64,000 nucleotides of DNA from Xestospongia muta (Eukaryota; Porifera; Demospongiae; Haplosclerida; Petrosiidae), in NCBI GenBank assembly GCA_963693285.1, contig OY848921.1, positions 5,779,229-5,843,228 on the forward strand, given 5' to 3'. Below the pieces are notes generated by a model. It worked only from the letters and a program-made list of their open reading frames with translations. It did not search any database and was not told the DNA's origin. Below are positions 236 through 29,146 of this stretch, in pieces (positions within the stretch are counted from its first letter, which is position 1; the number at the start of each line of letters is the position of its first letter). The position numbers were made by a program, and so were the translations under genes.

Positions 236-285
236 TGAATAAACAGGACTGCTCCTAGTCGGAGGAACAAACACTTAATATTCAT
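236..285 (+). repeat. Left end of element A: 14-bp direct repeat plus terminal inverted repeat
   Basis: The direct repeat TGAATAAACAGGAC is at 236-249, followed by the inverted repeat at 250-285. The inner 16 bases (AACACTTAATATTCAT) match the right end perfectly in inverted orientation; the outer part matches with several mismatches and one gap. A 14-bp direct repeat is longer than the 8-11 bp usual for Mutator-like elements. Confidence 0.55.
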
Positions 286-360
286 GATGGGCGTGGCTTT
301 CTATTTATTATTATTTGACATTTTCAATGAATAATAAACAAGTAATAAAACATAATACAC

Positions 361-1597
361 ATGATACTGTGCTCAGTTTGGATTACTGAGAGCTGTGATG
401 ACTCAAGTCTCCCCTCAGGATTAACAAATCTAGGAAATACTTGCTTTGCAAATGCAACTCTTCAGGCAATCCTTCATATTCCTTTCCTACAAGAATATAT
501 AAATAAACATAAAGAATGCGGTAAGAATTGTTATTGTCAATATCATAATGATATAAATGTACTCTTAGCTACGTTATGCTGTATATACTTGGTAAAAAGA
601 TTGAAGAATCTCTGCATGCAGGAAGGGGCTAAGGTGATACAGCCAATAGAGATCACCTGAACAGTAATGGACAAAACTAATATAAAGCAAATTACATATT
701 TTATAGAATTCATTCCATACTGGTCTCCAGGTAATAATGAAGATGCCCATGAGTTTCTTACTAAGTTCTTCTTCAAATTGAAGAGAGGTATTTATAGTCA
801 ATATTAGTGTTTTTGATATATTAATTTATTTTAATCATAAGTGACACCAGTGTACACAAATTAACTGATACTACAATAACTATTACTAGTAAGGACACAT
901 GTGTACATAAAATGTAATAAAATGTAAATGTGGATTGTCCAGATCTTCTGAAAACAACCAAACAAATCTACAAGTGCAGGTATGACATAAACAGTTACTA
1001 TTAAAATATTGACAATACAGTGGACATATCATCCAGGGAGCTAACATAGAAGAAGCAATCGCAATCAAAAATTCATTCCAAAAAGTGATGTTATCTGAAA
1101 AAGAGGATGTAATATGTCTGAGGTGATGAATGCATTTTCAACTAGCCCAATATATTAGTTCTATTACCAACAATAGATGTGACAAACAAACTCAAACAAA
1201 AGTAAACAAGATCTGCATTCGCTGCCATTAATTTTGATACTTCAATTACAAAGGTATACTCTTGTCATTGTTTGACAATAAATATATGAAGAACAAATTT
1301 CAAATACAGATTCTTTTGGAAGAGTGGCCAAGCACAAAATGTACATCACTAGTACAATTTTCTGAAGAAATACATCTTTGTGATGCACAGGTGCTTAAAG
1401 CAAAATTACAAGTTATCATAACATGTACAATTTAGGGAGCTACAGTTATGTTTGACCTGGTGGCAATGATAGAGCACATTGGACCATCTTGTACACAAGG
1501 TCATTATGTTTCCTACATTTTTAAAAACAAAAGGTGGTACAAAATGGATGACTTCTTGCAATTGGTAGGCTATACAAGTGATGATAATAAAATATAA
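361..1597 (+). pseudogene. Ubiquitin-specific protease (USP/C19) relic, copy A
   Basis: USP enzymes remove ubiquitin using a Cys-His-Asp triad. The Cys box GLTNLGNTCFANATLQ is clear at about 418-465, the QQD-like box as NNEDAHEFL at about 733-760, a degraded C-x2-C zinc ribbon near 910-935, GANIEEAIAIK and SEKEDVICLR near 1040-1125, the LPLILILQLQRYT strand near 1222-1260, and the His box GHYVSYIF with KRWYKMDDF at about 1500-1555. The ATG at 361 is the first in-frame start before the Cys box. An in-frame TGA at 658-660 and later frame changes break it, though some may be unrecognised introns. Both copies share most breaks, so decay began before duplication. USP family assignment is firm; current function is unlikely. 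Confidence 0.75.
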
Positions 1598-1801
1598 TTA
1601 CCTCAAGTCTCATGTATACCACATGGATCTTGATGTTATCTTACAAAAGCAGGCTTATATGCTGATATATCAAAAGTAAAGTGTTAAGGTAGCCTGAATA
1701 GATGGTGAAACCATCTTCCAACCCAATCACTTAAATGCCACATAATTTCAACCACATTAACCTAGTTTATTATACACACTATTAGTTCTTCTGGTTTTTA
1801 G

Positions 1802-1984
1802 AGTTCACTAAGACAGTCTCCTGAAATTATTAATGTTCAAAAACAGTTATTTGACAAACTTCTAAGAGAATTATTAACCACAGATGAAACACTTATCAAA
1901 GAGAGAAGCATGCTTGCCACATTACTACGTGCACAAGAGCTAAAGCAAGAAAATAAAATCAAACAAGGGCTCTGTCATCAATGA
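1802..1984 (+). CDS. Short helical ORF after a splice acceptor, copy A
   Basis: An exon-like open frame follows a TTTTTAG acceptor and ends with TGA at 1982-1984. The 60 residues are rich in Leu, Lys, Glu and Gln (for example QLFDKLLRELL, and RAQELKQENKIKQG) and would form an amphipathic helix or short coiled coil. It lies between the USP and Ulp1 regions and may be the C-terminal exon of the USP protein or the start of the Ulp1 protein. The frame is open in both copies. I do not recognise a family. Confidence 0.35.
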   Translation, partial: SSLRQSPEIINVQKQLFDKLLRELLTTDETLIKERSMLATLLRAQELKQENKIKQGLCHQ

Positions 1985-2389
1985 GTACATATATGTGGCA
2001 CATTAACAAAACTATCAACAATGGATGGTATATGAATGTCAGTTACAATGCATTAAATAAATAATCTTGTCCTATATAGATCTCAAACAATACTACAATG
2101 AAATTCAATCAAACAACATAATGTGTATAGTCAATTGAGGATGTCCTACCCAGCCATTTCACATAACACTATCAATCACTGATAAACAGTTACAGTGTCT
2201 GAAACAAGTTCATGAAGAAACACACATGGTTTATCTTCCTGGCTCAATGATAAGATGTAATATTCACAGTCAGAACAAAATCACATGATAATATGATTAG
2301 GTCATTAACAGTTATGTCATTCTCAGTGCAAATGAAGTGCAGCAGATGAAGGTAAACATGTGCTCACAAGAAGAAATTGATATATGTTA

Positions 2390-3002
2390 TTGTAGGGTTG
2401 TCATGTTTTGCCTCTGACATTATATTTCTTTCAACTAATTTCACAACATGGCATTGATCATGTTGTTCAAAACAATTACAAGAAGGTACAATCATATTTG
2501 ACTTGCTTTCTGTCAGACTTAGTATACATGTGCTCATAGTTACGAATGCTTGAAGACTACCATTACTGAGTAGTACCTCTTATAATTGCTCATTGGACAA
2601 TGATGGTAAGTATTGTTATGTAAAGTTATTATTGTTATTGATAATAATTATTATTACAATTATCCAAACAAAATGTCAGTCAAGGTGTTTCAAATCCCTT
2701 ACATTCTAGGATGTTGATTTTCAATCTAAGACACTCCACTATACTGATTCATTAAATCTATTATCTGTGTTTTCCTATCTTAAGAAAATCATGTTAGTGT
2801 GGCACAAAGTAACCCATAACAAACCATTATTCCTAAATATCGTACATATAGCTAATTCATAAGTCAACGATTTCAATGGACTAATTGAAAGGTAGATTTA
2901 CACTGGGTAAGACAGTCATTAATAATAATCAAATAATGGTAAATGTATAGAATGCTCCAGTTCAAAGGAATGGTTCTGACTGTGGAGTCTTTGCTATAAA
3001 GG
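2390..3002 (+). pseudogene. Ulp1/C48 SUMO-type protease relic, copy A
   Basis: C48 proteases cleave SUMO or NEDD8 through a His-Asp-Cys triad. Visible pieces in order are a GCHVLPLTLYFF segment from about 2395, the His motif VPLIIAHWTMM (about 2574-2606, ending at a GT donor), the Asp segment HYTDSLNLLSVFSYLKK (about 2735-2790, after an AG acceptor), and the Cys box APVQRNGSDCGVFAIK (about 2953-3000, Cys codon 2981-2983) followed by a GTGAAT donor. Spacing between the boxes fits introns. At least two stops (near 2538 and 2565) interrupt the frame before the His box, so this is probably a pseudogene. Ulp1-type proteases are frequent passengers of Mutator-like transposons. Confidence 0.7.
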
Positions 3003-3283
3003 TGAATATAGTGAATCATTTTATAGTTATTTCAAACACTTAACTAGATGGCGCTATATATTTTAAGTGAAGTAAAGCCTTTCTTTTAAGCAGGTATTAA
3101 AAAGTAAAGGTGTTTATTACTATGACAACACAATAGCAAAACATATCTAGATTTAGATACAAAATTTTACATGAACTACATACAGCATACAATATAATAC
3201 AGCTGATAATTTACCCAATACCACACTATTATACCATTAGGTGTGATATTGATGAGCAACTGAACTCCAATAGGAATGCAGCA

Positions 3284-3802
3284 ATGGAAGAGTCAAAATT
3301 TCTAGCACCAATATCATCATCAATGTCATCTCAATCATCAAACTTAAAAGGAAAGAAATCAAACTTTCAAACATCAAAACAACAATCACAAGCACATCCA
3401 GCTCATGGTTCACTACTTCAATCTTTATCTAATGAGCAGTCACAACTTCCTAATGCTTTAACAAATAGAAGTAACAAAAAAATTACACTGTCTTCTCTTA
3501 AATCAAGTTCTACCAATAAATCAGGAAAAGAGAATAAATCTTCTCTTCCTAAATCATCACAGCCTCATGTTCACATTTGCCCTAAATGCAAGAAAGAATA
3601 CCAACACAAACAAAGCCTTCAAAGCATATTAAAAAAAACCACAAAACCAAGATAGTAACGAAATGAATACCACTAAGTGCAAGGAAAAGGAATGTCACTT
3701 CAGCTGCTGTTACATCAAACTAACGCAACATCTAAACGAGCATCACAACTTCAATATCAAAACAGAAACATTACATTTCACAATGATGCAAGGTTTGTTA
3801 TG
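3284..3802 (+). pseudogene. Zinc-finger / Ser-Lys-rich ORF, copy A (frameshifted)
   Basis: The frame starts at ATG 3284 with a Ser/Gln/Lys-rich low-complexity stretch, then a finger-like motif (HICPKCKKEYQHKQSL). A one-base insertion in the A run at about 3631-3640 shifts it to a stop at 3655. In the shifted frame the same DNA continues with a C-x4-C ... H-x4-H finger (CKEKEC, LTQHLNEHH), as in the intact second copy at 26187-26705. It probably encodes the DNA-binding N-terminus of the transposase or an accessory protein. Confidence 0.5.
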
Positions 3803-3983
3803 AATAATTATACAAGTTTTATACATGTAATGCAGTATTGGTAATACACATCACTATTGGTAAATAAGATTAATTACTTGCAATAAATCTTTAACAGTTG
3901 CATGATAAAGGATACTTCACTCTGTGTTTAATACAATACAACTATAACATTTCTTTCATTACACTAAACCTTACCTTCTACAG

Positions 3984-4322
3984 AGTTTTCACGGTGGAAA
4001 GAGGAACTGGAAGAAGCAACAGACTCATGGTATGTAAGAGCTACATAGAAAAAGGAGACAATGGATAAGGAGACAATTTACTTCTATTGTAGCAGGAGTG
4101 GGTTTTTTGTTAGTGAAACAACTGGTGCGAGAAGCCTGAAGTCACAAGGAACAAACAAGATAAATGCTCATTGCACAGCAACTTAAACTGTTACAAGTGA
4201 CAAGCACAATGAATTAATTAGAGTAGAACTATGTGACACACACTATGATCATGACAGACAACTTGAACACTTACAAATATCACAATCAAAACGTGCTGAA
4301 ATTGCTGGTCAATTATCTAAAG
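3984..4322 (+). pseudogene. MULE-like transposase, N-terminal domain exon, copy A
   Basis: After a CTACAG acceptor the frame reads FSRWKEELEEATDSWYV, then (past an in-frame TAG) FYCSRSGFF, RSLKSQGTNKINAHC, (past a TAA) HYDHDRQLEHLQISQ, and ends LSK before a GTATTC donor. This order (WKEE, YxCxRSG, KxQGxxKI, HxGH-like, LxLS) resembles the N-terminal domain of metazoan MULE/SWIM transposases. Two in-frame stops mark it as broken. The DDE catalytic region that should follow is absent: only about 90 bases separate this exon from the post-catalytic part. Confidence 0.5.
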
Positions 4323-4416
4323 GTATTCCTATTGAATAATATTATATAAACACAATGCTCAAAATCAGTTATGAAAATAAACCATCAGTTGGTACCTAAA
4401 AATAGCTGGTATCAAC

Positions 4417-4872
4417 ATGTATGTTGAAGCATTCCACCACACACTAAAGTATTTGTATATGAAAGGTAAAATCAATCGACGTGTTGATAAATGTATTCAT
4501 CTGCTCATGAAGATAGCAAAAGATAAAGCTTTTAAAAGACTAATAAAATTAGGGAAGGGGAAGACATCTTATCGAATAGGTATTATTAACAGCAGACATG
4601 TACATAGTATGAAGCTTTCAATACAAGTTGTAACAGAAACTCACTGTAATGAATGGACTTCTACATCAAAACCTGAAAACCACTACACTATCAAAAAACA
4701 ACAAACAATTTGTCAAAATTACCATATACGATGCAAGGAATGCAACGTTTGTATACATGAGTATACATGCACATGTCCTGACTCTCTTCTCAATGTAACA
4801 ATGTGTAACCATATTTACTTTGTTATTAGGTATATCAACTCTCACTTGAATCATATTCCAACTCTCACTTGA
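4417..4872 (+). pseudogene. MULE-like transposase C-terminal part with SWIM zinc finger, copy A
   Basis: It opens YVEAFHHTLKYLYMKGK followed by NRRVDK, the signature that follows the catalytic core in Mutator-like transposases, and ends with a SWIM finger (YTCTCPDSLLNVTMCNHIYF, i.e. C-x-C-x(n)-C-x-H). SWIM fingers bind DNA or protein. The preceding bases encode WYQH in another frame, so a one-base slip precedes the ATG at 4417. A tandem duplication of about 23 bases (AACTCTCACTTGAATCATATTCC twice, about 4836-4883) creates the terminal TGA. No DDE motif is visible. The frame is identical in the second copy. Confidence 0.65.
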
Positions 4873-5006
4873 ATCATATTCCAGCAGAACCACCAAATGT
4901 CCCTATGAAGTCACTCAATGTTGGGAAGAAGGAAATATTTCATGAAATAAAAGTCTTAGGGGAATACACCACAACTGCTGACATGTAAGAAGACATACAG
5001 AGAGAT

Positions 5007-5324
5007 ATGTATCATCTATATGCCTTGTTAGATCAATGTACAGATGAAGATATCCTGCAACATGTAAGAAAGAATATAAGAGCAGCATTAAATCTTGTTG
5101 AAGTCAATATAATAGAACCATCATCTAGATTTAACAGGTTATCAAATGAACCAGCAAACAAAGCACTATTGTTACAAAAACCATTCTTCTCAACTCGAAA
5201 ACATCGTAAAACTCCATCAACAAAAATAGCTAAACCAACCAACAAACAAAAACATGAGCTAAAACAGTCACTTCTATCAAAACTCCAATCACTCAATTTA
5301 CCTAACTCAGTTATAGATAAGTAG
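5007..5324 (+). CDS. Basic C-terminal tail of the transposase, copy A
   Basis: This 105-residue frame (MYHLYALLDQCTDEDILQHV at the start) has a helical first half and a Lys/Pro/Asn-rich second half (KHRKTPSTKIAKPTNKQKHE). It follows the SWIM region after about 130 bases that are still coding-like in the same direction (AEPPNVPMKSLNVGKKEIFH near 4884-4945) but interrupted by a stop. SWIM-MULE proteins commonly carry such a basic, disordered tail, so I read it as the C-terminus of the broken transposase and not as a separate gene. Confidence 0.4.
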   Translation: MYHLYALLDQCTDEDILQHVRKNIRAALNLVEVNIIEPSSRFNRLSNEPANKALLLQKPFFSTRKHRKTPSTKIAKPTNKQKHELKQSLLSKLQSLNLPNSVIDK

Positions 5325-5509
5325 CAACTTACATAGTTGATTATTTTCAATAAACACTGTATAGACATAATTTTTTAGATGTAATAATGAGATTAAAACT
5401 GTAAATAATGAAAAGCTGTTGCATGAGGATAACAGTTGATACTATGAACAATGAACAATGAATTTGTTACTACACTATATATAGTTCTTGTGCCATAGAA
5501 ATTCTAGCC

Positions 5510-6018
5510 ATGACTGTCAATCAGAGAAGTATCGAAACCTTGTCACAACATGGACAACTAATAACAACAAATGGTCTTTTAACGTCATTACCAGATGAAA
5601 TTGTTGACAACTCCATTAATGATGTGAAGCATTATTTCATTGATCATGCCTGGTATGAATTATTACAAAGAGGTATATCAAAATATCCAATGTAAATAAT
5701 TCTTTTACGTGTTTTTTTATATAGTAAACAAAAAGAAATGTGAATGGGCCTGTAAATTATGCGACAATGTTTCTACAACAATGAATATGATACAATGTGA
5801 TGTGTGTGAAGAGTGGTATCACTGGTACGTATATCAACCAAAAGAACTTTTAGAGTAAACATATTTTGTCTTTCAGTAGTCTTTGTTTCAAACGTACAAT
5901 TATAATACTTTCACTTACATTCAGTAGGACCTGTGTTAACATCAAACATCCTCCCAGCTCTGAATTTTATTGTAACACATGTTCAACATCTAAGAAGACA
6001 AGACAAAACACATCATAA
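5510..6018 (+). CDS. Small PHD-finger protein, three exons, copy A (intact)
   Basis: Exons 5510-5672, 5725-5824 and 5928-6018 join in frame (phases 1 and 2) into 117 residues. The N-terminal half (residues 1-54) includes SLPDEIVDNSINDVKHYFID and has no domain I recognise. The C-terminal half is a complete PHD finger: CKLC, then QCDVC, EEWYHWTC and FYCNTC, giving C-x2-C ... C-x2-C-x4-H-x2-C ... C-x2-C. The donor GTACGT lies inside the finger, and the acceptor TTCAGTAG gives the exact H-x2-C spacing. PHD fingers usually bind methylated or unmodified histone H3 tails. It is the last gene before the right inverted repeat and the only element gene with no break, identical in protein in both copies. 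Possible roles are targeting of the element to chromatin, or a retained host function (inference). Confidence 0.65.
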
Positions 6019-6182
6019 GTCTAACATAATCTATACTCAACCAACAATAACTTCATTAACAGACTATCTTACCTTGAATACTATTTCATTACTCCATTAT
6101 TATAATGTAAAGCAACACATGCAGATGACGTTCATGTGACGAGTAGTGTTCACGTGATCGACCAATATAATCAATGAACCTT

Positions 6183-6234
6183 ATGAATATTAAGTGTTTC
6201 GTTCCTGTGACTAGCGGCTTTGAATAAACAGGAC
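6183..6234 (+). repeat. Right end of element A: terminal inverted repeat plus 14-bp direct repeat
   Basis: Inverted repeat at 6183-6220 (starts ATGAATATTAAGTGTTT), direct repeat TGAATAAACAGGAC at 6221-6234. It pairs with 236-285. Confidence 0.55.
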
Positions 6235-10352: not shown

Positions 10353-11085
10353 ACAGTAACAATTGATTCAACTAATTAATGGTCACTTGAATTATACTCA
10401 TGTTCACTAGGTTACATGATGTCTATAAACACATTGACAACATATATGGTATTGACTATTAATTACTATGGAATTGATAGTTCTTATAGTTTATTAACAA
10501 CTTCTAATGACATATGTGAAGTTCACATTCTATATTGACTACCAACCCTATATGATTGTTATTTAACTACATGAATTGTCAATTTCAGAGCATATTATTA
10601 GTAATAATCAATGACACAGTTAACTGTGTCATTGATTATTACTAATGTCTATGAATTGGTTCTTTTAACCCATTAATTTTACAGTGATATAGATAGTATT
10701 AGTGTTAAGCAATTAGCAATAAAGTGAAAAGTAAATACAAAACATTAGAACTTTAATCTGTTAATTTAGAACATGGACTTCATTTAATTATAAGCAGTAC
10801 CATATTAAATAATACTATGTAATCAAACCAAATACACCAAGGTATTAGATAACTTACTAACCTAAGTGGACAACGAACAAATCTCCACCAGCTAGCACAT
10901 CTTCTGTAAAAAGTATAATATCCAACATATGATGTTACAGAAGACACAGATACATTGTGTGAGCAAGATGATACAGCATTACAACTGTATATGATAAGAC
11001 AGATTACAATAATACAGTGTCAAAATAAAGCTTACCTATTCATCAAAACTGTATAACAAAACAAGACAATCAAGAGCCTCACCAT
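8309..11085 (-). CDS. EMI-EGF-FN3 type I membrane protein, copy 1
   Basis: Predicted exons (minus): 11036-11085, 10862-10984, 10066-10223, 9921-10016, 9747-9863, 8772-9056, 8494-8680, 8309-8423. All junctions are GT-AG and keep phase, giving about 376 aa. Residues 1-17 are a signal peptide (MVRLLIVLFCYTVLMN). Residues 17-86 are an EMI domain (YRRCASWW ... QCCSGYGPKPNC). Residues 110-142 are an EGF-like repeat (CTCVSG-type), 142-181 a Ca-binding EGF (DIDECSQNICDQHC), 181-276 one FN3 domain (ITWNPPLQYMQYG), about 296-324 the transmembrane helix (GGGLSFFCVCCIIISVCIF), then a charged 40-residue tail. EMI plus EGF occurs in MEGF/multimerin-type adhesion receptors. The third exon fuses EMI to half an EGF by reading through former intron sequence. 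Ligand unknown. Confidence 0.75.
10321..10350. repeat. (AT)n microsatellite, intron of copy 1
   Basis: Perfect TA dinucleotide run in the EMI intron; its length varies between units. Confidence 0.9.
10597..10646. repeat. 50-bp perfect palindrome, intron of copy 1
   Basis: Both arms of 25 bases are exactly complementary about the centre GTT|AAC, with no loop. Inner part: GACACAGTTAACTGTGTC. It lies in the intron between the two EMI exons and recurs at the same place in copies 2-5. Confidence 0.95.
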
Positions 11086-23138: not shown

Positions 23139-23188
23139 TGAATAAACAGGACTGCTCCTAGTCGGAGGAACAAACACTTAATATTCAT
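23139..23188 (+). repeat. Left end of element B: direct repeat plus inverted repeat
   Basis: Direct repeat 23139-23152 and inverted repeat 23153-23188, the same sequences as copy A. Confidence 0.55.
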
Positions 23189-23263
23189 GATGGGCGTGGC
23201 TTTCTATTTATTATTATTTGACATTTTCAATGAATAATAAACAAGTAATAAAACATAATACAC

Positions 23264-24500
23264 ATGATACTGTGCTCAGTTTGGATTACTGAGAGCTGTG
23301 ATGACTCAAGTCTCCCCTCAGGATTAACAAATCTAGGAAATACTTGCTTTGCAAATGCAACTCTTCAGGCAATCCTTCATATTCCTTTCCTACAAGAATA
23401 TATAAATAAACATAAAGAATGCAGTAAGAATTGTTATTGTCAATATCATAATGATATAAATGTACTCTTAGCTACGTTATGCTGTATATACTTGGTAAAA
23501 AGATTGAAGAATCTCTGCATGCAGGAAGGGGCTAAGGTGATATAGCCAATAGAGATCACCTGAACAGTAATGGACAAAACTAATATAAAGCAAATTACAT
23601 ATTTTATAGAATTCATTCCATACTGGTCTCCAGGTAATAATGAAGATGCCCATGAGTTTTTTACTAAGTTCTTCTTCAAATTGAAGAGAGGTATTTATAG
23701 TCAATATTAGTGTTTTTGATATATTAATTTATTTTAATCATAAGTGACACCAGTGTACACAAATTAACTGATACTACAATAACTATTACTAGTAAGGACA
23801 CATGTGTACATAAAATGTAATAAAATGTAAATGTGGATTGTCCAGATCTTCTGAAAACAACCAAACAAATCTACAAGTGTAGGTATGACATAAACAGTTA
23901 CTATTAAAATATTGACAATACAGTGGACATATCATCCAGGGAGCTAACATAGAAGAAGCAATCGCAATCAAAAATTCATTCCAAAAAGTGATGTTATCTG
24001 AAAAAAAGGATGTAATATGTCTGAGGTGATGAATGCATTTTCAACTAGCCCAATATATTAGTTCTATTACCAACAATAGATGTGACAAACAAACTCAAAC
24101 AAAAGTAAACAAGATCTGCATTCGCTGCCATTAATTTTGATACTTCAATTACAAAGGTATACTCTTGTCACTGTTTGACAATAAATATATGAAGAACAAA
24201 TTTCAAATACAGATTCTTTTGGAAGAGTGGCCAAGCACAAAATGTACATCACTAGTACAATTTTCTGAAGAAATACATCTTTGTGATGCACAGGTGCTTA
24301 AAGCAAAATTACAAGTTATCATAACATGTACAATTTAGGGAGCTACAGTTATGTTTGACCTGGTGGCAATGATAGAGCACATTGGACCATCTTGTACACA
24401 AGGTCATTATGTTTCCTACATTTTTAAAAACAAAAGGTGGTACAAAATGAATGACTCCTTGCAATTGATAGGCTATACAAGTGATGATAATAAAATATAA
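23264..24500 (+). pseudogene. Ubiquitin-specific protease (USP/C19) relic, copy B
   Basis: Same boxes as copy A: GLTNLGNTCFANATLQ, NNEDAHEFF (Leu to Phe), LPLILILQLQRYT and GHYVSYIF with KRWYKMNDS. The His-box region has lost the Asp of the MDD segment (now MND) and gained D-F to D-S. A TAG at 23543-23545 truncates the first frame four codons earlier than an older TGA shared with copy A. The extra lesions show relaxed constraint since duplication. Confidence 0.75.
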
Positions 24501-24704
24501 TTACCTCAAGTCTCATGTATACCACATGGATCTTGATGTTATCTTACAAAAGCAGGCTTATATGCTGATATATCAAAAGTAAAGTGTTAAGGTAGCCTGA
24601 ATAGATGGTGAAACTATCTTCCAACCCAATCACTTAAATGCCACATAATTTCAACCACATTAACCTAGTTTATTATACACACTATTAGTTCTTCTGGTTT
24701 TTAG

Positions 24705-24887
24705 AGTTTACTAAGACAGTCTCCTGAAATTATTAATGTTCAAAAACAGTTATTTGACAAACTTCTAAGAGAATTATCAACCACAGATGAAACACTTATC
24801 AAAGAGAGAAGCATGCTTGCCACATTACTACGTGCACAAGAGCTAAAGCAAGAAAATAAAATCAAACAAGGGCTCTGTCATCAATGA
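24705..24887 (+). CDS. Short helical ORF after a splice acceptor, copy B
   Basis: Open frame of 60 codons plus stop, with a Ser-to-Leu change at its second residue and Leu-to-Ser in RELLTT relative to copy A. Function unknown. Confidence 0.35.
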   Translation, partial: SLLRQSPEIINVQKQLFDKLLRELSTTDETLIKERSMLATLLRAQELKQENKIKQGLCHQ

Positions 24888-25292
24888 GTACATGTATGTG
24901 GCACATTAACAAAACTATCAACAATGAATGGTATATGAATGTCAGTTACAATGCATTAAATAAATAATCTTGTCCTATATAGATCTCAAACAATACTACA
25001 ATGAAATTCAATCAAACAACATAATGTGTATAGTCAATTGAGGATGTCCTACCCAGCCATTTCACATAACACTATCAATCACTGATAAACAGTTACAGTG
25101 TCTGAAACAAGTTCATGAAGAAACACACATGGTTTATCTTCCTGGCTCAATGATAAGATGTAATATTCACAGTCAGAACAAAATCACATGATAATATGAT
25201 TAGGTCATTAACAGTTATGTCATTCTCAGTGCAAATGAAGTGCAGCAGATGAAGGTAAACATGTGCTCACAAGAAGAAATTGATATATGTTA

Positions 25293-25905
25293 TTGTAGGG
25301 TTGTCATGTTTTGCCTCTGACATTATATTTCTTTCAACTAATTTCACAACATGGCATTGATCATGTTGTTCAAAACAATTACAAGAAGGTACAATCATAT
25401 TTGACTTGCTTTCTGTCAGACTTAGTATACATGTGCTCATAGTTACGAATGCTTGAAGACTAACATTACTGAGTAGTACCTCTTATAATTGCTCATTGGA
25501 CAATGATGGTAAGTATTGTTATGTAAAGTTATTATTGTTATTGATAATAATTATTATTACAATTATCCAAACAAAATGTCAGTCAAGGTGTTTCAAATCC
25601 CTTACATTCTAGGATGTTGATTTTCAATCTAAGACACTCCACTATACTGATTCATTAAATCTATTATCTGTGTTTTCCTATCTTAAGAAAATCATGTTAG
25701 TGTGGCACAAAGTAACCCATAACAAACCATTATTCCTAAATATCGTACATATAGCTAATTCATAAGTCAACGATTTCAATGGACTAATTGAAAGGTAGAT
25801 TTACACTGGGTAAGACAGTCATTAATAATAATCAAATAATGGTAAATGTATAGAATGCTCCAGTTCAAAGGAATGGTTCTGACTGTGGAGTCTTTGCTAT
25901 AAAGG
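25293..25905 (+). pseudogene. Ulp1/C48 SUMO-type protease relic, copy B
   Basis: The His (AHWTMM), Asp (HYTDSLN) and Cys (QRNGSDCGVF, Cys codon 25884-25886) boxes are all preserved as in copy A, and so are the stops before the His box. Catalytic residues survive although the reading frame does not. Confidence 0.7.
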
Positions 25906-26186
25906 TGAATATAGTGAATCATTTTATAGTTATTTCAAACACTTAACTAGATGGCGCTATATATTTTAAGTGAAGTAAAGCCTTTCTTTTAAGCAGGTAT
26001 TAAAAAGTAAAGGTGTTTATTACTATGACAACACAATAGCAAAACATATCTAGATTTAGATACAAAATTTTACATGAACTACATACAGCATACAATATAA
26101 TACAGCTGATAATTTGCCCAATACCACACTATTATACCATTAGGTGTGATATTGATGAGCAACTGAACTCCAATAGGAATGCAGCA

Positions 26187-26705
26187 ATGGAAGAGTCAAA
26201 ATTTCTAGCACCAATATCATCATCAATGTCATCTCAATCATCAAACTTGAAAGGAAAGAAATCAAACTTTCAAACATCAAAACAACAATCACAAGCACAT
26301 CCAGCTCATGGTTCACTACTTCAATCTTTATCTAATGAGCAGTCACAACTTCCTAATGCTTTAACAAATAGAAGTAACAAAAAAATTACACTGTCTTCTC
26401 TTAAATCAAGTTCTACCAATAAATCAGGAAAAGAGAATAAATCTTCTCTTCCTAAATCATCACAGCCTCATGTTCACATTTGCCCTAAATGCAAGAAAGA
26501 ATACCAACACAAACAAAGCCTTCAAAGCATATTAAAAAACCCACAAAACCAAGATAGTAACGAAATGAATACCACTAAGTGCAAGGAAAAGGAATGTCCC
26601 TTCAGCTGCTGTTACATCAAACTAACGCAACATCTAAACGAGCATCACAACTTCAATATCAAAACAGAAACATTACATTTCACAATGATGCAAGGTTTGT
26701 TATGA
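26187..26705 (+). CDS. Zinc-finger / Ser-Lys-rich protein, copy B (open frame)
   Basis: 172 residues. Residues 1-95 are low-complexity, rich in Ser, Gln, Lys and Asn. Residues about 97-112 hold CPKC ... H (HICPKCKKEYQHK). Residues 131-153 hold C-x4-C ... C ... H-x4-H (CKEKECPFSCC, LTQHLNEHHNF). Two Cys/His groups suggest zinc fingers of the kind found at the N-terminus of transposases. It ends at a TGA immediately after a GTTTGT donor-like site, so in life it may have spliced on to the transposase exon at 26886. Copy A has lost the frame by one inserted A. Confidence 0.5.
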   Translation: MEESKFLAPISSSMSSQSSNLKGKKSNFQTSKQQSQAHPAHGSLLQSLSNEQSQLPNALTNRSNKKITLSSLKSSSTNKSGKENKSSLPKSSQPHVHICPKCKKEYQHKQSLQSILKNPQNQDSNEMNTTKCKEKECPFSCCYIKLTQHLNEHHNFNIKTETLHFTMMQGLL

Positions 26706-26885
26706 ATAATTATACAAGTTTTATACATGTAATGCAGTATTGGTAATACACATCACTATTGGTAAATAAGATTAATTACTTGCAATAAATCTTTAACAGT
26801 TGCATGATAAAGGATACTTCACTCTGTGTTTAATACAATACAACTATAACATTTCTTTCATTACACTAAACCTTACCTTCTACAG

Positions 26886-27224
26886 AGTTTTCACGGTGGA
26901 AAGAGGAACTGGAAGTAGCAACAGACTCATGGTATGTAAGAGCTACATAGAAAAAGGAGACAATGGATAAGGAGACAATTTACTTCTATTGTAGCAGGAG
27001 TGGGTTTTTTGTTAGTGAAACAACTGGTGCGAGAAGCCTGAAGTCACAAGGAACAAACAAGATAAATGCTCATTGCACAGCAACTTAAACTGTTGCAAGT
27101 GACAAGCACAATGAATTAATTAGAGTAGAACTATGTGACACACACTATGATCATGACAGACAACTTGAACACTTACAAATATCACAATCAAAATGTGCTG
27201 AAATTGCTGGTCAATTATCTAAAG
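26886..27224 (+). pseudogene. MULE-like transposase, N-terminal domain exon, copy B
   Basis: Same motif order as copy A (FSRWKEELE, FYCSRSGFF, RSLKSQGTNKINAHC, HYDHDRQLEHL) with the same two in-frame stops, ending at a GTATTC donor. The catalytic core is missing downstream, as in copy A. Confidence 0.5.
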
Positions 27225-27324
27225 GTATTCCTATTGAATAATATTATATAAACACAATGCTCAAAATCAGTTATGAAAATAAACCATCAGTTGGTACCTA
27301 AAAATAGCTGGTATCAACACCAAT

Positions 27325-27780
27325 ATGTATGTTGAAGCATTCCACCACACACTAAAGTATTTGTATATGAAAGGTAAAATCAATCGACGTGTTGATAAAT
27401 GTATTCATCTGCTCATGAAGATAGCAAAAGATAAAGCTTTTAAAAGACTAATAAAATTAGGGAAGGGGAAGACATCTTATCGAATAGGTATTATTAACAG
27501 CAGACATGTACATAGTATGAAGCTTTCAATACAAGTTGTAACAGAAACTCACTGTAATGAATGGACTTCTACATCAAAACCTGAAAACCACTACACTATC
27601 AAAAAACAACAAACAATTTGTCAAAATTACCATATACGATGCAAGGAATGCAACGTTTGTATACATGAGTATACATGCACATGTCCTGACTCTCTTCTCA
27701 ATGTAACAATGTGTAACCATATTTACTTTGTTATTAGGTATATCAACTCTCACTTGAATCATATTCCAACTCTCACTTGA
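27325..27780 (+). pseudogene. MULE-like transposase C-terminal part with SWIM finger, copy B
   Basis: The 151-residue frame is the same as in copy A, including the SWIM finger (TCTCPDSLLNVTMCNH) and the 23-base tandem duplication that creates the stop. Just upstream this copy keeps six more bases (ACCAAT), giving WYQHQY, the expected sequence before VEAFHH, in a frame one base off. Confidence 0.65.
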
Positions 27781-27914
27781 ATCATATTCCAGCAGAACCA
27801 CCAAATGTCCCTATGAAGTCACTCAATGTTGGGAAGAAGGAAATATTTCATGAAATAAAAGTCTTAGGGGAATACACCACAACTGCTGACATGTAAGAAG
27901 ACATACAGAGAGAT

Positions 27915-28232
27915 ATGTATCATCTATATGCCTTGTTAGATCAATGTACAGATGAAGATATCCTGCAACATGTAAGAAAGAATATAAGAGCAGCATTAAA
28001 TCTTGTTGAAGTCAATATAATAGAACCATCATCTAGATTTAACAGGTTATCAAATGAACCAGCAAACAAAGCACTATTGTTACAAAAACCATTCTTCTCA
28101 ACTCGAAAACATCGTAAAACTCCATCAACAAAAATAGCTAAACCAACCAACAAACAAAAACATGAGCTAAAACAGTCACTTCTATCAAAACTCCAATCAC
28201 TCAATTTACCTAACTCAGTTATAGATAAGTAG
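27915..28232 (+). CDS. Basic C-terminal tail of the transposase, copy B
   Basis: 105-residue open frame with the same protein as copy A: helical start, then a Lys/Pro/Asn-rich end. Probably the distal part of the broken transposase. Confidence 0.4.
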   Translation: MYHLYALLDQCTDEDILQHVRKNIRAALNLVEVNIIEPSSRFNRLSNEPANKALLLQKPFFSTRKHRKTPSTKIAKPTNKQKHELKQSLLSKLQSLNLPNSVIDK

Positions 28233-28421
28233 CAACTTACATAGTTGATAGTTTATTTTCAATAAACACTGTATAGACATAATTTTTTAGATGTAATAAT
28301 GAGATTAAAACTGTAAATAATGAAAAGCTGTTGCATGAGGATAACAGTTGATACTATGAACAATGAACAATGAATTTGTTACTACACTATATATAATTTT
28401 TGTGCCATAGAAATTCTAGCC

Positions 28422-28930
28422 ATGACTGTCAATCAGAGAAGTATCGAAACCTTGTCACAACATGGACAACTAATAACAACAAATGGTCTTTTAACGTCAT
28501 TACCAGATGAAATTGTTGACAACTCCATTAATGATGTGAAGCATTATTTCATTGATCATGCCTGGTATGAATTATTACAAAGAGGTATATCAAAATATCC
28601 AATGTAAATAATTCTTTTACGTGTTTTTTTATATAGTAAACAAAAAGAAATGTGAATGGGCCTGTAAATTATGCGACAATGTTTCTACAACAATGAATAT
28701 GATACAATGTGATGTGTGTGAAGAGTGGTATCACTGGTACGTATATCAACCAAAAGAACTTTTAGAGTAAACATATTTTGTCTTTCAGTAGTCTTTGTTT
28801 CAAACGTACAATTATAATACTTTCACTTACATTCAGTAGGACCTGTGTTAACATCAAACATCCTCCCAGCTCTGAATTTTATTGTAACACATGTTCAACA
28901 TCTAAGAAGACAAGACAAAACACATCATAA
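28422..28930 (+). CDS. Small PHD-finger protein, three exons, copy B (intact)
   Basis: Exons 28422-28584, 28637-28736 and 28840-28930 join in frame to the same 117-residue protein as copy A. All PHD zinc ligands and all four splice sites are kept. It is the only gene of the element with no lesion in either copy. Confidence 0.65.
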
Positions 28931-29094
28931 GTCTAACATAATCTATACTCAACCAACAATAACTTCATTAACAGACTATCTTACCTTGAATACTATTTCA
29001 TTACTCCATTATTATAATGTAAAGCAACACATGCAGATGACGTTCATGTGACGAGTAGTGTTCACGTGATCGACCAATATAATCAATGAACCTT

Positions 29095-29146
29095 ATGAAT
29101 ATTAAGTGTTTCGTTCCTGTGACTAGCGTCTTTGAATAAACAGGAC
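29095..29146 (+). repeat. Right end of element B: inverted repeat plus direct repeat
   Basis: Inverted repeat 29095-29132 and direct repeat 29133-29146. One base differs from copy A (GCGTC for GCGGC). Confidence 0.55.

Follow-up and report, generated by a model that had tools for sequence, protein, structure and literature searches.

The element in the window and its duplicate

The window, that is, the whole stretch of 64,000 nucleotides of Xestospongia muta DNA that was analysed (contig OY848921.1, positions 5,779,229 to 5,843,228), carries at positions 246-6222 one insertion with inverted repeats of about 40 nt and an 8-bp target duplication. The left terminal inverted repeat (246..285, + strand) pairs with the right one (6183..6222, − strand), the inner side of the arms being perfect over 17 nt, and other genomic copies have the same ends. 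The target-site duplication (TSD) AATAAACA at 238..245 is identical to the 8 bp at 6223..6230, where AATAAACA recurs. An earlier note on this DNA had placed a USP, an Ulp1, zinc fingers, a transposase and a PHD protein on one strand between inverted repeats, and this was borne out: the USP, the Ulp1, the C2H2-like fingers, the MULE/SWIM transposase and the PHD ORF all lie on the + strand inside the repeats of exactly this element.

Projection from L031, the best-preserved genomic copy, in which most of the transposase is open, located the decayed USP exons E1-E8b at 398..1688 on the + strand (398-663, 707-787, 842-888, 918-979, 1037-1122, 1159-1253, 1310-1390, 1436-1564 and 1614-1688 in the window copy). 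They are followed on the same strand by a linker exon, E9 (1802..2027), a coiled coil by appearance, and by the decayed exons E10-E17 of an Ulp1/SENP-type protease at 2080..3179 (2080-2254, 2301-2351, 2396-2485, 2540-2605, 2710-2808, 2870-2906, 2951-3001 and 3137-3179), recognised through Pfam Peptidase_C48 and SENP1 matches on L031. Exon E18 (3241..3792, + strand) has two C2H2-like fingers, and exon E19 (3984..5318, + strand) is the remnant of a MULE transposase (Pfam MULE on L031) with a SWIM motif and a core that is short of about 750 bp. The last feature is a PHD-finger ORF of three exons (5510..6018, + strand; 5510-5672, 5725-5824 and 5928-6018), identified by Pfam PHD and intact in the window copy. 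E18 also contains an ATG, so that separate starts are possible.

The window copy is a dead DNA transposon, a pseudogene that codes for no working protease or transposase. Frame-breaking indels are present in E1, E2, E6, E7, E10, E15, E17 and E18, and about 750 bp of the transposase are missing, corresponding to L031 4670-5103 and 5148-5462, where two of the three acids presumed to be catalytic are located; D232 and D294 are gone from the window copy. A second copy at 23149..29134 (+ strand) is 99.6% identical to the first over 5975 compared positions and is a segmental duplicate of the 246-6222 insertion. Two independent insertions were ruled out by this identity and the identical TSD. The right flank of the window copies is in common with that of a further locus, L039 at C5:5757000.

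Copies elsewhere in the genome

The 158-Mb genome contains other copies of the element that are full length. Four copies at other sites (L029, L030, L031 and L033) carry the USP, and Ulp1 or at least its start, between the same inverted repeats, which places the proteases inside the element, as the earlier note had it. A TSD of 8 bp, within the 8-10 bp of MULEs, flanks the window copy, L030 and L033; it is imperfect in L029, and L031 has no clean TSD. Among the copies fetched, none had every exon intact. In L031, five residues are missing directly before the USP Cys box, the E17-E18 junction is broken and a stop follows the SWIM motif, while L029 lacks the start ATG and has a frameshift in E1. 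L042, which belongs to a second family (family B, the family of the window copy being family A), has a stop inside Ulp1.

Domains of the predicted proteins

The exon-joined protein of L031, taken without E8b, matched Pfam UCH (PF00443, 4.4e-37), and the best PDB sequence match of its USP was USP36 (2.1e-22). The Cys and His boxes that had been claimed from the outset are present in L031 and L042, together with an Asp box and a Cys ribbon; the aspartate box reads MDVSL in L031 and MDDS in other copies. By domain and boxes the USP falls within peptidase C19 and is a putative hydrolase. The family A USP matches that of family B at 35% over 293 aa (1e-60) and is far more distant from the USPs at eight other fetched loci: three of these gave matches, which were pieces no longer than about 120 aa (~26% identical) or, at 53%, 28 aa, host introns limiting such matches. 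The second protease of L031 matched Peptidase_C48 (PF02902, 2.9e-11, exon-joined protein) and SENP1 in the PDB (9e-16), and the expected His, Asp and Cys boxes were found within a catalytic set His-Asp-Gln-Cys that reads HW, YTDS and Q..SDCG. This protease is of the Ulp1/SENP (peptidase C48) type, with predicted SUMO specificity.

The MULE model (PF10551) matched the open 588-codon stretch of L031 (6.4e-12) as well as L042 (7.6e-10) and L045 (8.1e-12). In an alignment of 15 proteins D232, D294, E408, C316, W318 and H319 are invariant, and we take the D/D/E among these residues to be the catalytic triad, accompanied by a C/H motif. When a model of the core (pLDDT 74) was compared by Foldseek, ISCth4 transposase took each of ranks 1-5 with E between 1.2e-7 and 5.1e-6, but at a TM (query) of 0.26-0.31 and an rmsd of 10-17 over long alignments; ISCth4 is an IS256-family, Mutator-related transposase. 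The Pfam matches, the invariant D/D/E and the fold matches to ISCth4 support classification of the element as a MULE.

The SWIM-type transposase of the earlier note was borne out: Pfam identifies the MULE, and the motif CxCx(n)CxH is invariant in the 15 proteins (C524, C526, C536 and H538), although SWIM itself had no Pfam match. Similarly, two C2H2-like zinc fingers can be recognised in the sequence, but the Pfam zf-C2H2 match on L031 (0.033, 15.1 bits) is below the cut-off of 25.2 bits. The PHD protein was confirmed by the match of the window copy's own three-exon ORF to the C4HC3 PHD profile PF00628 (1.4e-8); histone binding is its predicted function. Ginger1, with its Gypsy-integrase-like (rve) core, was rejected as the class of the element, the L031 core scoring MULE with no rve match by Pfam; traces of rve were seen as a sub-threshold match in L042 (0.0048), and P0008 and P0065 carry rve alongside MULE. 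KDZ/Zisupton was also rejected: Pfam includes a KDZ model, and among the matches listed there was none to it, the best being MULE or a related ZSWIM1-3 model.

Relatives and previously described systems

Relatives of the transposase core include spider and beetle proteins. There were 425 core relatives, and in the listed annotations of the top 120 UCH and C48 did not occur and PHD occurred once; exon-wise gene calling would hide domains in such proteins. A full-length query against proteins returned 7 of 3051 candidates, none of them with UCH plus MULE, and an exon-joined USP-Ulp1 query returned 0 of 4476, a weak negative since ordinary USPs were also missed. Alignment-based scans gave 24 pattern matches in viral contigs and 118 in genome contigs, of which none was confirmed as a relative. 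Two metagenome/ENA proteins, P0067 and P0122, have the transposase lineage in common with the element. P0067 ends in a PHD (Pfam 4.4e-6), and in P0122 a PHD-like finger and an Ulp1-like protease can be made out by eye (with only weak Pfam matches, RickCE 0.0057 and YopJ-type 0.049); unlike in the element, the protease is C-terminal and a USP is absent from the ORF.

According to the accessible portions of the literature, Ulp1, Ulp1 with PHD, and OTU are already in print on transposons, as is a USP on another transposase. Ulp1 in MULEs, as the earlier note stated, is known from Kaonashi, from melon and rice, and from Mutator elements of hydra and lancelet (PMC2528002, PMC2836005), and a figure legend in PMC2836005 aligns Ginger1 and Mutator transposases over their Ulp1 and PHD domains; however, the accessible portions of these papers describe no USP in a MULE, and the Ulp1 of KI-MULE is in reverse orientation. 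Spectre and Ghost (PMC6446971) resemble the element in their MULE core and SWIM, and Spectre also in its 8-bp TSD and C2H2, but the TIRs of Spectre, compared by description only, are 74-76 bp rather than about 40, and the words ubiquitin, peptidase and protease are absent from the main text of that paper. MuDR-6_HM, listed with an 'Ovarian Tumour Gene' in Table 1 of PMC6446971, likewise combines a MULE with a deubiquitinase-class domain, which is however OTU instead of USP, with no Ulp1 listed there. A USP-type (C19) hydrolase is joined to a DNA transposase in Trichomonas XP_001314237.1 (Transposase_11 plus Peptidase C19; PMC2836005), but that transposase is of another superfamily, and Ulp1 and PHD go unmentioned in the accessible text. 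Helitrons with VTD and OTU deubiquitinases (PMC9741609) also have two deconjugating proteases, OTU occurring on 121 VTD Helitrons, but they are rolling-circle elements, both enzymes are of DUB classes, and the accessible text describes no USP or Ulp1.

What appears new here is the set of USP, Ulp1 and PHD on a MULE. The combination, which the earlier note thought might be undescribed, was not found in the open-licence literature searched by titles and abstract beginnings, and no USP in any MULE was reported there. The main text of PMC13359780 does not contain the terms ubiquitin, peptidase, protease, PHD or SWIM.

Proposed role of the proteases

We consider it likely that the insertion is a dead copy of a MULE whose relatives have a USP-Ulp1-PHD module that aids transposition. 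In such relatives the zinc-finger parts would bind the element ends, the DDE core would cut and then insert with an 8-bp duplication, and tethering of the complex to chromatin would fall to the PHD finger. The two proteases, USP and Ulp1, would remove ubiquitin and SUMO from the transposase, from silencing or repair proteins of the host at the target, or from both, and transposition would thereby escape degradation and SUMO/ubiquitin-dependent silencing. Editing of ubiquitin and SUMO marks at chromatin, as suggested in the earlier note, would be part of this scheme, judging from domain content. The anti-silencing role is a tentative proposal, and one that may well prove wrong. A real, if minority, probability also attaches to the proteases acting in cis only, the USP stabilising the transposase and Ulp1 maturing or de-SUMOylating it, with host silencing unaffected; this would suit two proteases that are probably covalently fused to the transposase, but it leaves the kept PHD finger unexplained.

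The recurrence of deconjugating proteases in unrelated transposons suggests that transposition must contend with ubiquitin and SUMO, and the co-occurrence of both proteases on a MULE makes this old idea testable. Here a MULE combines both kinds of protease with a chromatin-reader-type finger, and this set was retained through a divergence that left the transposases about half identical. Monoubiquitination of SETDB1 has reportedly been implicated in transposon silencing.

One large protein or separate genes

In L031 the exons from USP to Ulp1 form a single stop-free frame across 17 GT-AG introns, and canonical splice dinucleotides were found at 38 of 38 sites in L029 and at 354 of 390 over 11 copies. 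Read from the splice phases, better-preserved relatives probably encode one large protein from one spliced frame. Its order would be USP, linker, Ulp1, two C2H2-like fingers, a Cys/His-rich DNA-binding-like region, the DDE (MULE) core and SWIM, followed downstream by a PHD protein that in some relatives is fused to the C-terminus of the transposase. Two or three separate genes, for a USP-Ulp1 protein, a transposase and a PHD protein, would agree with the internal ATG within E18, with the own ATG at which the family A PHD ORF starts, and with the stop that closes the transposase frame ahead of PHD in family A and, within family B, in L041 and L042. We find this arrangement less likely, because the E17-E18-E19 junctions are in frame in L029 and L030, with E17-E18 joined by GT-AG, and because transposase and PHD share one frame in P0067 (Pfam 4.4e-6), in L045 (Pfam 0.01, below the cut-off) and, judged by eye, in P0122; in L044 the transposase frame continues into the first PHD exon.

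Maintenance of the module in other families

Family B (L041, L042 and L044) has a core about 48% identical to that of family A and an unchanged gene order; relatives with this order and a DDE core, which the earlier note had proposed looking for, were thus found both as full-length genomic copies and as a second family. No left repeat was recognised in L042, and no TSD was found in L042 and L044. The introns of the L042 USP agree with those of family A in phase in 8 of 8 cases, six of them at the exact aligned column and the other two, which lie next to gaps, no more than 3 and 6 columns away. A third family (C: L043 and L045) has a diverged USP whose boxes keep their order; its Ulp1 boxes were recognised by motif, with no Pfam match to C48 in the stretches tested; in L045 a PHD-like finger is fused to the transposase.

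A USP was located upstream, on the transposase strand, at 22 of 62 transposase loci (expected 0.19), and on the opposite strand or downstream within 7 kb at none. No upstream USP was detected by Pfam at the other 40 loci, some of which are fragments or diverged (L045, which has USP boxes, is among them). The USP linkage and the copies with TIRs and TSDs ruled out adjacent but independent host genes. Amino-acid changes were relatively rarer among inherited than among private variants in all six parts (pooled one-sided p = 2.1e-4), although only one part reached p < 0.05 alone (USP, 0.048). In several pairwise comparisons dN/dS is close to 1 or exceeds it, as is expected for dead copies. Conserved order, linkage and constraint therefore mark this as a lineage of MULEs in which the USP-Ulp1-PHD module is stable.

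MULEs acquire host gene fragments (PMC6446971) and plant MULEs contain gene fragments (PMC2528002), as stated in the accessible portions of these papers, so that the USP, and perhaps Ulp1, could be a host gene fragment with no role in transposition, a view with which the 40 loci lacking a USP match would agree. Such capture is nevertheless improbable, given USP intron phases in common to two families with such divergent cores, USP boxes in a third family, catalytic boxes that are kept, inherited variation about as constrained as the transposase's own, and a USP in no other position or strand at the 62 loci. A domesticated host gene cluster merely resembling a transposon would account for the conserved gene order, but the TIRs, the many dispersed decayed copies and above all the TSDs of independent copies, which refute it, leave it next to no probability.

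Beyond a stable module in this lineage, it is conceivable, though rather speculative, that the USP-Ulp1-PHD module was already present in the ancestor of a broad lineage of animal MULEs and would act as a built-in counter-silencing unit, on one transposase polypeptide, reversing silencing of both the ubiquitin- and the SUMO-based kind at the sites where the element resides or inserts. In the tree, named sea-urchin and spider proteins branch, in a weakly supported order, between families A/B and family C, which form separate clades.

Structure and gene content of the element

The window (C5:5779229-5843228, within a 158-Mb genome of 28 contigs) contains an insertion at 246-6222 that is flanked on both sides by AATAAACA and bounded by inverted repeats of about 40 nt, 17 nt of which are perfect. 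To define its genes, exons E1-E19 and E8b were derived by hand and script from L031, the best-preserved copy of the same family (family A), and nearly all are bounded by AG..GT. They specify a USP (E1-E8b), a linker (E9), an Ulp1 protease (E10-E17), C2H2-like fingers (E18) and a MULE transposase with a SWIM finger (E19), followed by a PHD ORF. Canonical splice dinucleotides were found at 38/38 positions in copy L029, 37/38 in L031 and 33/38 in the window copy, and at 354/390 across 11 copies, a tally that includes three near-duplicates of others (L030, L034 and the second window copy, W2). In L031, translation is stop-free from E1 to E17 through USP, linker and Ulp1, with E8b in frame (phase 0) and giving the terminal QAYILIYQ of the USP, and the transposase core is open throughout a 588-codon stretch. 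This copy lacks five residues before the Cys box, has a broken E17-E18 junction and carries a stop after SWIM; E17-E18-E19 are in frame in L029 and L030. The USP-to-transposase region was probably made as one fused polypeptide.

Pfam matches to UCH (4.4e-37), Peptidase_C48 (2.9e-11), MULE (6.4e-12) and PHD (1.4e-8), together with the inverted repeats, bear out the earlier proposal of one element with USP, Ulp1, MULE transposase and PHD. The top solved-structure matches by sequence were USP36 (2.1e-22) and SENP1 (9e-16). Deubiquitination of histone H2B is reported for the Drosophila USP36 orthologue (PMC7316882), and this likeness may serve as a lead on substrate, no more. The AlphaFold model of the core had a mean pLDDT of 74, with 18 of 21 ten-residue blocks at ≥85 in residues 181-390, and ISCth4 transposase was found in all top five Foldseek matches, at low TM-scores.

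The earlier note had suggested that this combination may be undescribed. Our searches of the open-licence literature found no report of a USP within a MULE, or of USP and Ulp1 in the same transposon, but related arrangements have been published. Ulp1 is known from Mutators of plants and of animals, Ginger1 has it together with PHD (aligned with Mutator transposases), and a Trichomonas Transposase_11 protein carries a C19 hydrolase (all PMC2836005). OTU is described in MuDR-6_HM (PMC6446971, Table 1), and VTD and OTU in Helitrons (PMC9741609).

Copies, linkage and selection

A genome DNA search gave at least 69 matches (identity 78-100%), a lower bound because 40 of 231 candidates were scored; 12 regions were retrieved for comparison. 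Both element ends (..ACTGCTCC... and ...CCGCTTTG) are present in L029, L030, L031 and L033. Clean 8-bp target duplications flank the window copy, L030 (ATGCTTCT) and L033 (CTCTCTCT); that of L029 is imperfect, and none was found at the ends of L031. By eye, a Death-domain-like ORF flanks L031 and a kelch-like ORF flanks L033; animal-type genes thereby adjoin insertions. The flanks of L029 (C1:11255500-11263200) and L030 (C1:11203500-11211300) are direct duplicates of ~95% identity, between which the element is inverted and 99.8% identical, with differing target duplications; either one site was used repeatedly or conversion occurred between inverted copies. L036 (C4:3640000-3644900) and L037 (C4:3847000-3851900) have almost no USP or Ulp1 sequence within the fetched stretch and an E19 region more than 500 bp longer than that of L031, their core apparently being interrupted by other inserted DNA.

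Linkage, two further families and selection together point to a stable module. When 82 core matches were grouped into 62 transposase loci, 22 were preceded at no more than 7 kb by a UCH match in the same orientation, versus 0.19 expected by chance (simple Poisson, duplicated loci not discounted); at that range, none had one on the other strand or downstream. Among the 46 loci with ≤70% identity, 16 had an upstream UCH match.

Of 14 aligned family-A copies, eight were used for selection analysis, after omission of duplicates (L030, L034, W2, L039) and copies without a USP part (L036, L037). The coding parts show signs of constraint: N/S was lower for inherited than for private variants in a pooled one-sided Fisher test (p=2.1e-4; 1.0e-3 without MULE). 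The normalised N/S values (inherited/private, single-part p) were 0.46/0.99 (0.048) for USP, 0.70/0.94 (0.49) for the linker, 0.44/0.77 (0.18) for Ulp1, 0.31/0.96 (0.056) for C2H2, 0.53/1.05 (0.079) for MULE and 0.26/0.75 (0.065) for PHD. Pairwise dN/dS ranged from 0.12 to >2 (one pair undefined), a spread expected because dead copies are among those compared. Judged from sequence, the ancestral proteins were quite probably active enzymes. Tentatively, the proteases would counter silencing; an equally tentative alternative is that they would give cis-protection instead.

Related families and age of the module

The family B core is 48% identical to that of L031 in L041 and L042, and 40-53% by stretch in L044. 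All three have the order USP, Ulp1, C2H2-like, MULE and three-exon PHD; the first USP exon was not found in L041. Ten USP exons of L042 read stop-free, and its Ulp1 has one stop. The family A and B USPs share 35% identity over 293 aa (1e-60). All eight family-A USP introns recur in family B with the same phase, six at the exact aligned column and two off by 3 and 6 columns, beside gaps; family B has one further intron. In family C (L043, L045; core identity 40-46%), the USP boxes Cys, DAHE, CxxC, HY and MLFY occur in order when pieced together from both copies. The first exons match Pfam UCH at 2.3e-6 (over the cut-off) and 2e-4 (under it), and the USP gives weak matches to a three-sequence HMM. 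The Ulp1 boxes YLTDEV, GHYWY and DCGVF were seen by motif only, and a PHD-like finger ends the 760-aa transposase frame of L045 (Pfam 0.01, below cut-off).

There were 425 core homologues, with sea urchin, spider and beetles named among the matches listed. In a FastTree analysis of 37 cores (679 columns), family C formed a clade (support 1.00) separate from A and B, and the sea-urchin, spider and beetle proteins branched between or beside the three families with support of just 0.50-0.93. Since family C stands apart with these proteins in between or beside, the module would either predate those host splits, or have moved, or have arisen repeatedly by gain. In P0122, a metagenome protein of the same transposase lineage (1030 aa), an Ulp1-like protease and PHD-like finger are seen by eye C-terminally in one ORF with the transposase; proteases therefore occur at either end of these transposases.

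Decay of the window copy

The window copy is dead. Frame-breaking indels lie in E1, E2, E6, E7, E10, E15, E17 and E18, deletions have removed D232 and D294, two of the three presumed catalytic acids of the core, and the PHD ORF is the only coding part seen intact. W2 (23149-29134) is a segmental duplicate, with a target duplication common to both window copies, which ride on the duplication of an array of repeated segments at 6591-63698. Many of these segments are 1-6 kb long and 84-96% identical; an ORF in one of them has an fn3 domain, and another ORF is EGF-like by eye. Within the array, a perfect palindrome occupies 10597-10646, its two 25-bp arms directly abutting.
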